From the NCBI GenBank assembly GCA_040882285.1, contig JBBEBQ010000005.1:241681-305680 (forward strand): a stretch of 64,000 bases of DNA, in the 5' to 3' direction. Below are positions 20,462 to 55,663 of this stretch, in pieces; positions within the stretch are counted from its first letter, which is position 1, and each line of letters opens with the position of its first letter. The notes beneath the pieces were generated by a model. That model ran no database searches. It saw nothing but the letters and a program-made list of their open reading frames with translations, and was not told where the DNA came from. A program made the translations under genes and the position numbers. The stretch comes from Gemmatimonadaceae bacterium. Its GTDB lineage: Bacteria; Gemmatimonadota; Gemmatimonadetes; Gemmatimonadales; Gemmatimonadaceae.

Positions 20462-23013
20462 TGCGGCTGTGGCGCTCCATCGCGCGGCTCGCGTGGCGCG
20501 AGAGCCGGACCGCGCGCAGGCGGCTGCTGCTGTCGATGTCGTCCATCTCGCTCGGCGTCGGCGCGCTGGTCGCGATCGACTCCTTCGCGGCCAATCTCAC
20601 TCGCTCGCTACGCGAGCAGTCGCGCGTGCTGCTCGGCGGCGACATCGCATTCAGCTCTCGTCAGCCCTTCCGCCCGGCCGTGGATTCGTTGTTCGATTCG
20701 CTCGCGCGAAACGGCGTCGAGATCGCGCGAATCACCAAGTTCCCCTCGATGGCCGTAGCGCGGCGGAGCGGCGATTCGCGCCTCGCGCCCATCCAGGCGG
20801 TCACTGGCAACTATCCACTGTACGGCGACATCACGACGGAACCGGCGGGCCGGTGGAGCGCGCTGCGGACCGGGCCGCACGCGCTGATCGACCCCTCGCT
20901 GCTGACTGCGCTCGATGTCCGGATCGGCGACACGATCTCGATCGGCTACGCCCGCTTTGCCATCGCCGGGACGGTGACCGACATCCCCGGCACGCCGGAG
21001 ATCTCGGAGATGATCGGCCCGCGCGTATTCATACCTGCGCGATACCTTGCCGAAACGCAGCTGCTGCAATTCGGCAGCACCGCGAGCTACGAGGTGCTAG
21101 GAAAAACGCGGACCCCGGAGATCGCCGAGCGGATCTCGCGCGACGTGCGCCCGCGGCGGCGCGCGCTCGACGTCAGGGTGCAGACCGCCGAGCAGACCGA
21201 GGAGGACGTCAGCGACGCGATCGCGCAGCTCGCGCAGTTCATCGGCGTAGTCGGACTGGTGGCGCTGCTGCTGGGAGGGCTCGGCGTCGCGAGCGGAGTG
21301 CACGCGTTCGTCGCGCGCAAGATCGACACGGTGGCGATTCTTCGCTGCCTCGGCGCGACGAGCCGGCAGGTGCTGGCTGTGTACGTGCTCCAGGCGGCCG
21401 TGATGGGGCTGATCGGAGCCGCGTTCGGTGTCGTGCTCGGACTCGGCATGCAGTTTCTCGTGCCGATCGCGCTCAGCGACGTTCTGCCCGTGGACGTGAG
21501 CGTCCGGCCCGAGCCGTCGGCGATGGTCGCCGGGCTGCTCGTGGGCGCGTGGGTCGCGCTGGCGTTCGCGCTGCGTCCGCTGCTCGCGCTGCGGAAGATC
21601 TCGCCGCTGCAGACGCTGCGGCGCGACGCGGACTCGAACGTGCTGCGGATGCATTGGCGCGACGCGCCGCGGCTGCTGGTGAACGCCGCGATCGCCGCCA
21701 GCATCGTGACCATCGCCGTCATGCGCACCGGCTCGCTCACCGAAGGCGTCGCGATGAGCATCGGTGCAGGGGTCGCCTTGCTGGTGCTCGGCGTGAGTGC
21801 CGCACTCCTGTCGTGGCTCGCGCGCAAGGCCGTGCGGCCGCGCTGGCCGTACGTCCTGCGGCAGGGGATCTCCAACCTGCACCGCCCGGCCAACCAGACG
21901 CGGCCGGTGATTCTCGCGCTCGGATTCGGGGTGTTTCTCGTGACTACGCTGTACGTGGTGCAATCGAGCCTACTCGACCGCTTCTCGCTGGGAGTGGGCA
22001 GCTCCAGCGCGAACGTCGTGTTCTTCGACGTGCAGCAGGACCAGCAGCCGGGCGTGGACTCACTGGTGCGCGCGGGCGCGGAGCGGATGGTTCAGAAAGC
22101 CCCGGTCGTGGTCATGCGGGTCGGCTCCATCAACGGAGTACCCGTCACCGACGACCGGATCGAGCGCACACCCGAGGGAAGACGCGCGCGCTGGGCGCTG
22201 CGCCGCGAGTACCGCTCGACCTTCCGCGACACGCTGGTGGCGTCGGAGCGGCTCGTCGCCGGCAAATGGGACGCGGAGACGAGCGCGCAGTCCGACACGT
22301 CCGCGATCTCCGTCGAGCAGGACCTTGCCCGTGATCTCAGGCTCGAGCTCGCCGACGTGGTCGTCTGGGACGTGCAGGGAGTGCAGGTGCCGACGCGGAT
22401 CACCAGCCTGCGCGCCGTGGACTGGAACAGGTTCGAGCCGAACTTCTTCATCGTGTTTCGGCCGGAGGCGCTCGCGCGCGCGCCGACGCAGTACATCGTG
22501 ACGGCGAAGACCCTCGACGCGGCCCAGACCGCGCGGCTGCAGCGCTCGATCGTGTCCCGCTTCCCGAACGTGTCGAGCATCGACCTCTCGCTCATCCAGA
22601 ACACGATCGGCAAGATCCTGGATCGCGTGACGGTCGCCGTGCGCTTCCTCGCGCTGTTCAGTCTCGCGATGGCCGTGCCGATCCTGATCTCGGCGGTCGC
22701 GGGCGCCCGGCGCGAGCGCGTGCGCGAAGGCGTGCTGCTCAAGACGCTCGGCGCTACGCGCGCGCAGGTCGCGCGGGTGATGCTGGCCGAATACACCGCG
22801 CTCGGCGTGCTTGGCAGCGCTACGGGGCTGCTGCTGGCCTACGCCGCCGGGTGGGCGATCACGCGCTTCGTGTTCGACACCGCTTTCACACCGGCGATAA
22901 AGGCGAGTCTCGGCATTGCGGGGTTGATGATCGGACTAACGGTCACGATCGGGTTGCTAGCGGGGCGGGAAGTGTTCCGGGAAACGCCGATGGCAGCCTT
23001 GAGGGGCGACTAG
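20461..23013 (+). CDS. ybbP: FtsX-family permease (YbbP type)
   Basis: 850 residues from the ATG at 20461. An N-terminal membrane segment (LLLSMSSISLGVGALVAIDSF) is followed by a large periplasmic domain, three central spans (about 260-385: FIGVVGLVALLLGGLGVASG), two more around 405-450, a second periplasmic domain and a C-terminal FtsX triplet. This is the ten-span two-FtsX layout of YbbP. It works with the ybbA ATPase. Its TAG stop is part of a TGACTAG heptamer array. Confidence 0.88.
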   Translation: MRLWRSIARLAWRESRTARRRLLLSMSSISLGVGALVAIDSFAANLTRSLREQSRVLLGGDIAFSSRQPFRPAVDSLFDSLARNGVEIARITKFPSMAVARRSGDSRLAPIQAVTGNYPLYGDITTEPAGRWSALRTGPHALIDPSLLTALDVRIGDTISIGYARFAIAGTVTDIPGTPEISEMIGPRVFIPARYLAETQLLQFGSTASYEVLGKTRTPEIAERISRDVRPRRRALDVRVQTAEQTEEDVSDAIAQLAQFIGVVGLVALLLGGLGVASGVHAFVARKIDTVAILRCLGATSRQVLAVYVLQAAVMGLIGAAFGVVLGLGMQFLVPIALSDVLPVDVSVRPEPSAMVAGLLVGAWVALAFALRPLLALRKISPLQTLRRDADSNVLRMHWRDAPRLLVNAAIAASIVTIAVMRTGSLTEGVAMSIGAGVALLVLGVSAALLSWLARKAVRPRWPYVLRQGISNLHRPANQTRPVILALGFGVFLVTTLYVVQSSLLDRFSLGVGSSSANVVFFDVQQDQQPGVDSLVRAGAERMVQKAPVVVMRVGSINGVPVTDDRIERTPEGRRARWALRREYRSTFRDTLVASERLVAGKWDAETSAQSDTSAISVEQDLARDLRLELADVVVWDVQGVQVPTRITSLRAVDWNRFEPNFFIVFRPEALARAPTQYIVTAKTLDAAQTARLQRSIVSRFPNVSSIDLSLIQNTIGKILDRVTVAVRFLALFSLAMAVPILISAVAGARRERVREGVLLKTLGATRAQVARVMLAEYTALGVLGSATGLLLAYAAGWAITRFVFDTAFTPAIKASLGIAGLMIGLTVTIGLLAGREVFRETPMAALRGD

Positions 23014-23035
23014 TGACTAGTGACTAGTAACTGCG
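23009..23035. repeat. Heptamer array, TGACTAG type, at the ybbP stop
   Basis: The last codons of ybbP (GAC TAG) form the first unit; two more TGACTAG and TAACTGC follow. Confidence 0.85.
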
Positions 23036-23043
23036 AACTACCC

Positions 23044-23071
23044 TGCGTGCTGCGTGCTGCGACCTGCGCCC
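23044..23071. repeat. Heptamer array, GCTGCGT type, 4 units
   Basis: TGCGTGC, TGCGTGC, TGCGACC, TGCGCCC in register, directly after the TGACTAG array. Confidence 0.75.
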
Positions 23072-23100
23072 CAACAGCCGAGGTTTTCCGCCTTGCTCGC

Positions 23101-23135
23101 AGCTGGCAGCTTCAAGCTGGCAGCGCGCAGCGCAG
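23101..23135. repeat. Heptamer array, AGCTGGC type, 5 degenerate units
   Basis: AGCTGGC, AGCTTCA, AGCTGGC, AGCGCGC, AGCGCAG in 7-bp register, just downstream of infA on its 3' side. Confidence 0.65.
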
Positions 23136-23143
23136 TGACCCCG

Positions 23144-23365
23144 TTAGGTCTTATGGCGGAAGGTAATTCGGCCGCGAGTGAGATCGTACGGCGACACTTC
23201 GACAGTTACGCGATCGCCCTGAAGCACCCGAATGCGGAACCGCCGCATGTTGCCGGCCAGGGTGGACAGCACCTCGTGCCCGCTGTTCACGGATACGCGA
23301 AACGTCGCGTTGGGGAGGACATCGACGACCGTGCCCTCGAGCTGGATGGAATCTTGTTTTGCCAC
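23144..23365 (-). CDS. infA: Translation initiation factor IF-1
   Basis: 73 residues, full family length, with [36 protein letters not shown] and [15 protein letters not shown], the OB-fold signature. The start is GTG (codon at 23363-23365). No Shine-Dalgarno is seen; a -10-like ATTATA at 23372-23377 ends 6 bases before the start, suggesting a leaderless message. It stands alone, not in a ribosomal-protein operon within view. Confidence 0.95.
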
Positions 23366-23402
23366 AGAGTGTATAATGCCCTAACGCATGAGCTTGCGTC
23401 AA
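23366..23402 (-). promoter_or_regulatory. Candidate promoter of infA, close to the start codon
   Basis: On the leftward strand TTGACG (23402-23397) is followed after 19 bases by ATTATA (23377-23372), or after 18 by CATTAT. Transcription would begin about at the GTG start codon, leaving no leader. Spacing is longer than the usual 17. Confidence 0.45.
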
Positions 23403-23417
23403 CAACGCGGCCGTAGT

Positions 23418-23452
23418 TACTAGTCACTAGTCACTAATCACTAGTCACCTAT
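23418..23452. repeat. Heptamer array, TCACTAG type, 5 units
   Basis: TTACTAG, TCACTAG, TCACTAA, TCACTAG, TCACCTA between the infA promoter and phhA. Confidence 0.85.
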
Positions 23453-26807: not shown

Positions 26808-26827
26808 ACTGGTGACTATTTAGCCTG

Positions 26828-26861
26828 TGACTAGTGACTAGTGACTAGTGACTAGTAACAA
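26828..26861. repeat. Heptamer array, TGACTAG type, 4-5 units
   Basis: Four TGACTAG units and TAACAAA, between the NagB-LmbE gene and the four-helix-bundle gene. It ends CTAGTAAC, matching in inverted form the sequence after that gene. Confidence 0.85.
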
Positions 26862-26960
26862 ACTACTAATGCGGGAAAATGATTGCGCGTTAGCGGAAAC
26901 GCGGTGGGACCCCGGACGAATTGCCGCATCTTGCCCTTCCTCTCTCGCCGGAGTGCTACC

Positions 26961-27350
26961 GTGCAGGACTTCAAAAAGCTGAAAGTTTGGATGAAAGCGC
27001 ACTCTTTCGTACTGGATGTTTATTCCACGACCAAATCATTCCCTACCGACGAGCGTTATGGACTGACCGCACAACTTCGCAAATCCGTCGTGTCGGTTCC
27101 TACCAACCTAGCCGAAGGTTGCGGCCGGGACTCCACGGGAGCGTTCGCCTCCTTCGTCCAGATCGCGACGGGCTCGGCGTGCGAGGCGGAGTATCAACTG
27201 CTTCTAGCCCGAGACCTCGGCTATCTCAAGAACGACGAACACGCGCGGCTGTCCCAGCAAGTCTCCCATCTGGAACGAATGCTGACCTCACTTGATCGAA
27301 CTCTGGTGATGAAGACGGCGGTAAGGGGGGAGAGGTTAGGTAGTTACTAG
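26961..27350 (+). CDS. Four-helix-bundle protein (S23/IVP family)
   Basis: 129 residues from the GTG at 26961 (VQDFKKLKVWMKAHSF, the family start). Conserved elements: LKVWMKAH, FPTDERYGLTAQLRKSVVSVPTNLAEGCGR and the third/fourth helix around ARDLGYL. This family includes proteins encoded in 23S rRNA intervening sequences and accessory proteins of retroelements; the biochemical role is unknown. It is bounded by heptamer arrays on both sides, and its stop TAG is inside one. A second member lies at 53300. Confidence 0.85.
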   Translation: MQDFKKLKVWMKAHSFVLDVYSTTKSFPTDERYGLTAQLRKSVVSVPTNLAEGCGRDSTGAFASFVQIATGSACEAEYQLLLARDLGYLKNDEHARLSQQVSHLERMLTSLDRTLVMKTAVRGERLGSY

Positions 27351-49926: not shown

Positions 49927-52900
49927 CTACGGGCGAAGCTTCGTGAGGGCGCGAACGAGTCCATCGAGGAGCGTGGAGCCGCCAAGCCGGGTCAGCTTCA
50001 GAGACAGCGGGTGCGTCCGTCGCACTTCCGCCGAGAACTGCACGTCCTGAAACGCCGCCGCGAGACCCTTCACGCGCGGAACGGCATAATCTCTAAAGGT
50101 AATACGGGCCTCCGCGCCCCGCACGAAGATGGACTCGATCTCGAGCGCGCCCCCTAGGACGCGCAGCAGGCTGGTGGCAAAGAACCCCTCCGCCGCCGGC
50201 GGCAGCGGACCGAACCGGTCGCGCACTTCCTGCCGCACCTGTTCGACATCCGCGGCTTCGGTAAGGTTCGTCAGCCTGCGATATATGTCGAGCTTGGCGT
50301 CCTGCGAGGGTATGTAGTCGTCGGGCAGGAAGGCCGGCGCGTCGAGCGACACCTCCGCGGGCTGGAGCTTGGGGCCGGTGTCGCCGCGCAGCATGCGGCG
50401 CACCGTCTCGTCGAGCAGCCGCAGATACATGTCGAACCCGACGGCCTGCACGAACCCCGACTGCTCCGGCCCAAGCAGGTTGCCCGCGCCGCGCAGCTCC
50501 ATGTCCTTGAGCGCGATGCGGTAGCCGGAGCCGAGCTCGGTGTGGTGCTCCAGGATCTTCAGCCGCCGGTTCGCCTCTTCGTCCACGGTCTCCGGCACGA
50601 GGAGGTAGCAGTACGCCCGGCGGTGCGAGCGGCCGACGCGGCCGCGGAGCTGGTACAGCTGCGCGAGGCCCAGCGTGTCGGCCCGGTTCACGAACATCGT
50701 GTTGGCGTTGGGCACGTCCAGCCCCGACTCGACGATCATCGTCGAGACCAGGATGTCCAGCTCCTCGTTGACGAACCTGCGCATGACGGATTCGAGGTCG
50801 CGCTCGCGCATCTGCCCGTGCGCCACGCCGATGCGCGCGCGCGGGGCGAGCCGCTGCACGTGGTCGGCGACCGCTTGAATGGTCTCGATCCGGTTGTGCA
50901 CGAAGAACACCTGGCCGCCGCGGTCCAGCTCGCGCGCGATCCCCTCTTCCAGCAGGCCGTCGTCCCACGGCTCGACGAACGTGAGCACCGGCGAGCGGTC
51001 GCGCGGCGCGGTCTGCATCAGCGTCATGTCACGCAGCCCGGCGAGCGAGAGATGCAGCGTCCGCGGGATCGGTGTCGCCGTGAGGGTGAGCGCGTCCGTC
51101 TGCAGCCGCAGCTGCTTCAGCCGCTCCTTGTGCTTCACCCCGAAGCGGTGCTCCTCGTCCACCACGATCAGCCCCAGCTCGCCGAAGTTGACGTCGGCGC
51201 TCAGCAGCCGGTGAGTTCCTATGACGATGTCCGCCTTCTTTTCCGCGATCTCCGCGAGCACTTCCGCCTGCTCCTTCGCGGTCTGGAACCGGCTCAGCGT
51301 GCGCACTGTCACGGGAAAATCGGCCAGCCGGTCGCCAAAGGTTCGCGCGTGCTGCTCGGCCAGGATCGTGGTGGGGACGAGCACCGCGACCTGGCGCCCC
51401 GACTGCACCGCCTTGAACGCGGCGCGCACGGCGACCTCCGTCTTGCCGTAGCCGACGTCGCCGACGAGCAGACGATCCATCGGCCGCGTCCCCTCCATGT
51501 CCGCCTTGACGTCCTCGGTCGCGCGCCGCTGGTCGGGCGTGTCCTCGAACAGGAACGACGATTCCAGCTGCCGCTGCCAGGCCGTATCCGGGACGTGCTG
51601 CGCGCGGGTGGCGATCTTGCGCCGCGCGTACAGGTCGAGCAGCTCCGCGGTCATCTCCTGAATCGCGGCCCGCGTTCGGTCGCGCTGCCGCGTCCACCGC
51701 TTTCCGCCCAGCTTGTGCAGGTGCGGCGGCGCCGCGTCGCCGTCGATGTCGTCCGAGGCGCGGAACCGCTCGAGCTGGTCAATCTTGTACAGCGGCACGT
51801 TGAGCCGGTCGCCGCCGGCGTACTCGATCACCGCGACCTCGACGGTGCTTTCCCGCACGAACAGCTTCTCCATGCCGCGGTAGATCCCGACGCCGTGCTC
51901 GAGATGCACCACGTAATCGCCCGGCTTGAGCGCGGCCCCCGAGTCGAACGCGCTGCCGCCGGAATACTTTCGCGCGCGCCGGATCCGCCGCTCGCGGCTG
52001 AATATCTCGTGGTCGGTGAGCACGCGAAGACCCGGATCGCTTCCGCGGGGCGGGACCACGAATCCCCGGTGCAGCACGCCGATCGCGAGCGCGGCGGGCG
52101 ACGGCGGCCCCGGCCCGTCGTCGAGCAGCTCCTCCAGCCGCTCGGCCTGCCCCGCGTTGTCGCACAGGATTACCGTGGGCGTGCCGTCGCGGACCGTGCG
52201 GCGGAGCTGCTTGATGTCGCGCGCGATCGCCTCGGGAGCGCGGATCGGGAAGACGATGTCCTCGCCGTCGCTCGCCGCGGAGTGCAGCGCGACGGATCCG
52301 AACGACGCGAGCCGCCGCGTCACGTCCTCCGGCCGGTCGTACAGCTCTTCCCTGTCGGGCGCGTCCTCGCCGCGGCGGCGGGCGAGATCGATGTGGTGCT
52401 GCGCCTCGTCCCACGTGCGCGCCAGCTCGGCGTCGAGCTTCGTGCCTTCGGGGTACACGACGACCGTGTCCGGCGGCCACAGGTCCGCGATGGAGATCCG
52501 CTCGAATTCCTCGGTCGTGGTGGTGACTTGCCCGTCCACCGGCAGCACGAGCGCCAGCTCCGCCTCGCGCGTCGAGCGCTGCGAGCCCACGTCGAAATGC
52601 CGCAGCTCGGCGATCTCGTCGCCGAAGAATTCCAGCCGCACCGGCTCGGCCATGCCGAAGCCGTAGATGTCGAGGATCCCGCCGCGCACGCTGAACTGCG
52701 CGACGTCGTCCACCATGTCCACGCGCTCGAAGCCGATAGACTCCAGGTGCTCGATCAGCTGCGTCGGACGATGAACGTCGCCTTTCCGGAGCTCGAGCCT
52801 GGCGGCGGACAGCGCGCGCGCGAGCCGGGTGCGCTCCATGACCGCGCGCGCCGTGGTGAGCAGCACGCGAATCCCGCCGCGCGCCATGCGCTCCAGCGTC

Positions 52901-53217
52901 TCGACCCGCTCACCCGCGACTTCGGCGTGCGGCTCCGCTTCGCCGAACGCCTCGCGCGGGGGATAGAACGCGACCGATTCACCGTCGGCGACCGCGCCCA
53001 TGTCGGCGAGCCACCGCTCCGCCTCCGGCACGGCTTCGCAGACAACGACAAATAATCGCCGCTCCAGCCGGCGCGACAGCGCGCTGACCAGGACGGCGTC
53101 GCTCGAGCCATGCAGGCCGGCGACACGGGCGGAAAGGCCCGGGGGTGGGACGCGGTCGAGGAGTTCCGTGAAGGACGGAAGCCCTTCGACCGCCGACAAC
53201 AACAGCGGCAATGGCAT
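49927..53217 (-). CDS. mfd: Transcription-repair coupling factor
   Basis: 1096 residues, near full family length. UvrB-like front, RNA-polymerase interaction domain around [20 protein letters not shown], helicase motifs [12 protein letters not shown] (Walker A), [16 protein letters not shown] and [18 protein letters not shown], and the TRCF C-terminal domain. It removes stalled polymerase and recruits UvrA. It heads a leftward group with the PpiC lipoprotein, surA and pdxA. Confidence 0.95.
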
Positions 53218-53258
53218 TGGGGCACCGCAAGGTAACTATGCTCCTGGGTGTTCGACTG

Positions 53259-53795
53259 CCGGAATCCAAGTTGGGAGTGGGGCAGTTTGGAGGGGAAAGT
53301 CAGGCAGTCGTAGCGGACTTCCGCAGAACCGTCGCTCGCAGCCCGCAGAGCATCCGGCGAATCTCAACCGTTTCCCGGGCCAGGCGCTCCCACTCCCGCA
53401 GCTTCATTACTCCGTAGTCCTTGGCGAGATCGAGCTGACCTTCGAGCTCTTTGGACGACTTGATACTGCTGTCCAGGAACTTGGCGAAGTCCTTTGGCGT
53501 ACGCGTCCCGCAACCTTCGATGATGTTGAAGAGGATCGACTCTGCCGCGCGCGTCGTTTGCGAGTGCAGAGGTGCATAACCTCTTCGCGGAAAAGCCCCG
53601 GTCGCGCGCCGAACCGCGATGCAGTGCGCATGTGCCCTCGCCCACACGTCCAGCTTCCGGTGATCCTGCATCTCGCAAGTAGCCGCGAATCAGCAGAACA
53701 AACACCATCCAGCTACGACTCGTCCAATCGAATCTCTGCAGTGTTTCTCCTCACTGCCCCACTCCAAACTGCCACACTCCAAACTTGGATTCCGG
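53259..53795. mobile_element. Small element with 37-bp inverted repeats around a four-helix-bundle gene
   Basis: CCGGAATCCAAGTT begins both ends. The left arm 53259-53295 and the right arm 53759-53795 are inverted copies agreeing at 34 of 37 positions, every mismatch being G versus T. They enclose 463 bp whose only gene is the S23/IVP-type ORF. This is the size and plan of a small insertion unit or a free-standing intervening sequence. No target duplication is obvious. Confidence 0.7.
53300..53671 (-). CDS. Four-helix-bundle protein (S23/IVP family), second copy
   Basis: 123 residues beginning [20 protein letters not shown], with [19 protein letters not shown] and [17 protein letters not shown] in later helices. 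It is the same family as the protein at 26961, but divergent. It fills the element between two inverted repeats. Proteins of this family are encoded inside 23S rRNA intervening sequences and near some retroelements. Function is unknown. Confidence 0.82.
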
Positions 53796-53857
53796 TGAGC
53801 CCCCGCTCGGACTCTATATTTCAACCCTTCCCCGTCAAAGTCCCGCAAATCAGCCCC

Positions 53858-55663
<1,806 letters not shown>

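Follow-up and report, generated by a model that had tools for sequence, protein, structure and literature searches.

What is a gene of the S23 family doing between two protein genes of a Gemmatimonadaceae bacterium? Intervening sequences (IVSs) that bear S23 genes form stem-loops that replace helix loops of 23S rRNA (PMC4990558), and free-standing S23 or 'four helix bundle protein' genes are very common. One such gene lies between mfd and lepA in the 64,000-nucleotide stretch analysed here (the window), where it is enclosed by inverted repeats; the first-pass annotation suggested that the whole might be a free, mobile relative of the rRNA IVSs.

The unit between mfd and lepA

Two inverted arms of 37 nt, at 53259-53295 and 53759-53795, match at 34 of 37 positions (92%) and are spaced by 463 nt. 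The sole gene-like ORF inside them is an intact S23/IVP gene of 123 aa on the minus strand (53300-53671), and the unit is flanked by mfd (49927-53217, minus strand) and lepA (53858-55663, plus strand). The product, a four-helix-bundle protein, matches over its whole length both PF05635 (23S_rRNA_IVP; E=2e-23, 83 bits against a curated cut-off of 33.8), its only Pfam domain, and TIGR02436 (E=7e-23, 81 bits against a curated cut-off of 24). The layout is thus confirmed as first annotated, in coordinates and in family. Read on the plus strand, the left arm (53259-53304) consists of a GGAATCC cap and a degenerate heptamer array of AGTNNGG and AGTGTGGC units, and the right arm (53747-53795) of a heptamer array and a GGATTCC cap. 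The 7-nt period is weak in the arm of the window unit (0.34 at lag 7 against 0.38 at lag 20, the best), and its reading in heptamers rests on splitting a 15-nt unit as 7+8. Comparison of the flanks of 78 copies shows that arm similarity continues past the 37 nt into a degenerate outer stem, at about 53240-53258 on the left and 53796-53815 on the right, which is common to the gene-less copies of these ends.

Such copies are numerous. A whole-genome search (2.89 Mb), as the first-pass annotation had proposed, finds the ends at 26 further places, 24 of them facing pairs and two single arms, with no gene between the ends at any of the 26. The paired copies are mostly palindromes of ~95-150 bp, built from an outer stem with the consensus GGCTCC.GGGATTNTGACGG, the GGAATCC cap and a core of AGTNNGG and AGTGTGGC units, and they are located mostly between genes. 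The predicted fold of the unit stretch beats 100 of 100 shuffles (z -3.8); as the ends also recur 26 times without a gene, the inverted arms of the window are not due to chance. Across GTDB genomes the same end pattern is found nearly exclusively in Gemmatimonad MAGs, mostly as pairs. When searched against Rfam, the palindromes match microRNA precursors below threshold only, and these were taken as chance hairpin matches.

One heptamer word per S23 lineage

The window unit is one of many. Ten TIGR02436 matches are found in the genome, and eight of these S23 genes lie between inverted repeats, each with a different sequence of short tandem units. The heptamers of the other resident arms include ATTGGCT, GGTTNNN, CTGCGTG and GTGAGCC. 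A second S23 gene of the window (26985-27302, plus strand; G000:C5:268665-268982) belongs to a GTGACTA family, with an intact tandem array on its left (within 26814-26889, plus strand) and a right arm that is largely lost. Elsewhere in the window (~23008-23449), an infA-like gene (translation initiation factor IF-1) stands between inverted GTGACTA arrays; it is possibly a captured host gene, or else the arrays may belong to two adjoining elements.

Each S23 lineage has its own heptamer, and the genome carries gene-less palindromes of its own S23 words. Gene-less palindromic copies exist for most resident S23 arms, each of which matches 2-56 places in the 1.58 Mb (of 2.89 Mb) that was read as stretches for the arm-match counts and for a census of hairpins. 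In the same 1.58 Mb, 53 of the 55 arms taken from outside the genus have no match. The census, made blind, returns 71 strong hairpins, most of them heptamer-array palindromes, and nearly all of their families have a cognate S23 gene in this genome. For the GGACTGA palindromes there is no cognate S23 gene in the 1.58 Mb read, and GGACTGA arms flank an S23-like gene in a relative. Palindromes of another kind, unconnected with S23, have a conserved 28-nt loop, TACGCTCGCAAACTGCGCTCGCTAAGAC, and long arms unique to each locus; the loop occurs 20 times in the stretches read (G000:C10, C18 and C5; L165-L242), for example at C18:90-117 and C10:6601-6628.

The layout is general across phyla. Inverted arrays of short tandem units, usually of 7 nt, surround the S23 gene at 97 of 125 loci from Gemmatimonadota, Cyanobacteria, Alpha- and Gammaproteobacteria, Desulfobacterota and Bacteroidota; the loci surveyed are mostly the top-scoring family members per genome, and many of the genomes are MAGs. 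In the order of the source genome, cyanobacterial and Azospirillum plasmids, Bacteroidales and Desulfobacteraceae, the arms are inverted at 80 of 101 loci and direct at 10; the Gammaproteobacteria, counted separately, have inverted arms at 17 of 24. The threshold for the arm score comes from left flanks compared with the right flanks of other loci, where the 99th percentile is 15. Among control small ORFs of this genome 6 of 218 pass it, four of which are S23 genes, so that 2 of 214 non-S23 genes remain; both are ORFs between GTGACTA arrays. The best period is 7 or 14 in 77 of the 97 positives (60 of 80, and all 17 gammaproteobacterial loci) as against ~10% in shuffles, with a few exceptional arrays of period 6, 8 or 9, and 72 of 80 arm sets are G-rich on the strand that runs into the element. 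The 28 loci without clear arms include divergent or partial family matches.

Where S23 proteins are related, so are their heptamers, even at unrelated loci. Of the non-orthologous pairs with at least 65% protein identity, 10 of 21 (48%) have heptamers in common at an arm score of at least 14, a score reached by 0.1-1.7% of non-orthologous pairs below 55% identity. When arms are permuted, ten shared pairs occur in 0 of 5000 trials, with a maximum of four; kinship is handled in these figures by the exclusion of orthologous loci and by permutation only. One of the sharing pairs joins a cyanobacterial to a gammaproteobacterial locus (L136/L325).

This sharing bears on whose property the arms are. 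The arms of each unit match gene-less palindromes resident in the same genome, and inner hairpins have been swapped within a shared outer stem, as would be expected if the arms belonged to palindromes spread by other means and S23 were a hitchhiker inserting into their tips. A hitchhiker would take any palindrome present, so the words that related S23s share at unrelated loci, even in different phyla, count against this account. They are the chief ground for assigning the heptamers to S23 instead of treating them as mere landing sites. Nor does the genome offer a familiar agent for such spread, since neither a Y1 transposase (PF01797) nor a reverse transcriptase (PF00078) is found in this assembly (96.6% complete). 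We regard the hitchhiker account as unlikely.

Arms, turnover and constraint

If the unit were a free-standing IVS at the RNA level, RNase III would cut the stem of its transcript and S23 would act on RNA. The protein family and the inverted ends are those of rRNA IVSs (PMC4990558), the stem is predicted to be stable, and the first-pass annotation had read all three arm mismatches as G/T, with the stem kept through G-U pairs. That reading is wrong. In all three mismatches G faces A (C faces T on the other strand), and none is paired in the predicted fold. Over 57 oriented units the sense-strand mismatches comprise 76 G.U and 67 A.C, about equal numbers, with no bias toward an RNA stem, and selection on an RNA strand through G-U pairs was dropped as an explanation. 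The variable positions of the gene-less copies are likewise unpaired: the dinucleotide NN2 is paired in 4 of 48 copies (null 3.9) and NN1 in 15 of 48 (null 9.8), so that selection for pairing was rejected as nil at NN2 and weak at NN1. The unit also sits between two protein genes. Taken together, this makes an RNA-level IVS a rather poor prospect. Since NN does not covary between the arms and G.U is not in excess, the arms look like inverted recognition words rather than a hairpin selected for pairing.

Judged by sequence comparison, relatives do not all have the same units and palindromes. Comparison of L097 and L086 with this genome shows orthologous sites with and without a palindrome, and gene-carrying units of relatives (L276, L277, L282) occupy sites that hold only another heptamer element here. 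At G000:C25:94832-94950 and its counterpart L098:5337, two species have the same outer stem with an entirely different inner heptamer hairpin, which reads as an exchange of the hairpin tip within a conserved outer stem. An S23 unit at G000:C25:144168-144415 (L044) is apparently decaying through internal deletion and is longer at the same site in two relatives (L270 and L275). These differences suggest that units and palindromes are mobile. Against this, no target-site duplication is seen at the few usable junctions, and several of the sites compared are filled by another heptamer element instead of being empty, a pattern that hot spots or rearrangement could produce without mobility.

The unit between mfd and lepA is itself of long standing: all four genomes of the genus have it, and it has been inherited vertically within the genus. 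Elsewhere mfd is not adjacent to lepA, for which reason this unit has no clean empty allele. L092, a candidate second locus with the same ends, was rejected when alignment of its flanks proved it to be the mfd-lepA site again. The suggestion of a free, mobile IVS-type element therefore holds in part: the unit lies outside rRNA, its ends have many copies, and presence varies among relatives at other sites, whereas this particular unit is genus-wide and the empty site that had been looked for between mfd and lepA is not seen. Conservation of the arrangement between mfd and lepA in distant species with no other copies of the ends, named beforehand as the pattern that would speak against mobility, is not what the genomes show.

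S23 is under strong purifying selection, with dN/dS of 0.08-0.16 (0.08-0.10 for the window gene against same-genus orthologues). A polar set (Q, R, S, N, E, G, S, E) is conserved in 83-99% of 99 S23 proteins. The only relative in the PDB, XCC0516 (2GSC), is reported as a ring-shaped pentamer of four-helix bundles in literature cited in PMC4990558.

This constraint, together with vertical retention at mfd-lepA and the mostly intergenic position of the palindromes, would suit a domesticated regulatory module, in which S23 would bind the arrays at gene ends, as operators or as processing sites, and the arrays would multiply through slippage and recombination alone; for heptamer repeats, slippage is a mechanism already proposed (PMC4679880). 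Slippage lengthens arrays in situ, however, and would neither give rise to matching palindromes at tens of unrelated loci nor account for gains and losses at orthologous positions. Same-genus genomes, moreover, have up to 14 S23 genes each, mostly with different words, which is unlike a regulator. We consider such a module improbable.

Still further from what is observed is the notion of ordinary MITEs of an insertion sequence with an S23 gene captured by chance. The gene-less copies do resemble MITEs in being short, non-autonomous, bounded by terminal inverted repeats and placed in intergenic regions. Yet each copy of the window ends genome-wide is either gene-less or the S23 unit itself, none with a transposase, no convincing target-site duplication is seen at the few usable junctions compared (clean empty sites being few), and dozens of unrelated end sequences are all found around S23. 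These observations leave this explanation hardly credible.

A proposed two-part element and its known counterparts

We favour, at a probability of roughly 60%, a widespread element in two parts whose layout recalls REPIN-RAYT: S23 would recognise the repeats, and the palindromes would be non-autonomous copies. The likeness to REPIN-RAYT (PMC3116915) lies in dispersed inverted-pair palindromes with one class per cognate protein gene, and in a protein gene that is flanked by the same repeats and retained. The differences are that S23 is a four-helix bundle without a Y1/HUH domain, in a genome where no Y1_Tnp is found, and that the repeat of the S23 element is a heptamer array. Since the arms favour repeated recognition words, we infer that S23 would bind the heptamer arrays, recognising its own words in the arms, and that, alone or with a host enzyme, it would promote their spread. 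This might take place in cis for the gene-carrying unit and in trans for the palindromes, as RAYT is thought to spread REPINs. In the GGAATCC-capped family, the commonest locally, the heptamer hairpin sits in the tip of the outer stem, and the inner hairpin has been exchanged at a conserved site. S23 is not known to have a catalytic fold, and the chemistry of movement may therefore fall to another enzyme; reverse transcriptases and Y1 transposases were rejected as the mover, as neither family is found in the genome. Avd of the diversity-generating retroelements is a four-helix-bundle relative, and here the resemblance to those systems stops at the reverse transcriptase that this genome appears to lack.

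Along with REPIN-RAYT, the 23S rRNA IVSs (PMC4990558) are the closest known systems. Like them, the unit has inverted ends that make a long stem around an ORF of the S23 family, and a stem-loop that takes the place of a short loop. It differs in lying outside rRNA, in having arms that are heptamer arrays with dispersed gene-less copies in the same genome, and in an S23 gene under purifying selection, where the S23p of Coxiella is reported to be decaying (PMC4990558). Because IVSs likewise replace the loops of 23S rRNA helices, they may have arisen as S23 elements that entered rRNA.

The arrays themselves have been described and left unexplained. Known heptamer repeats are the STRR of cyanobacteria, GGGAATC of Xanthomonas and GGGGA(C/T)T of Nostoc (PMC4692102), and TAACTGA of Beggiatoaceae (PMC4679880). 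Like the arms studied here they are degenerate 7-nt tandem arrays, mostly intergenic, and in Xanthomonas often close inverted pairs; unlike here, neither report links a protein to them, and a repeat-binding protein as a possible mobile element is raised as speculation only (PMC4679880). No paper in the openly accessible literature that was searched connects S23 with heptamer arrays, and an earlier report elsewhere is possible. The gene-less copies of the ends and the same layout around S23 genes of several other major bacterial groups together point to a small, spreading DNA element of a kind not yet described. More tentatively, and with the odds somewhat against it, S23/IVP proteins could be the founders of a new DNA-mobilising or repeat-maintaining class without a known recombinase, nuclease or polymerase fold, whose lineage-specific words generate arrays and palindromes, those of STRR type included, and IVSs where they land in rRNA.

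S23 genes beside cas genes have been listed as associated with CRISPR adaptation (PMC10910872). On plasmids of Pseudanabaena (L133) and Anabaena sp. 90 (L134), an S23 gene lies between cas6 and cas4 and is flanked by inverted heptamer arrays. In view of these two cases, the reported CRISPR association of S23/IVP genes may reflect insertion.

Three loose ends may have one answer: what free-standing S23 genes do, why cyanobacteria, xanthomonads and Beggiatoaceae carry heptamer repeats, and where the intervening sequences of rRNA came from. The rule of one word per S23 lineage also predicts a recognition code from protein to word, which would be useful as a tool.
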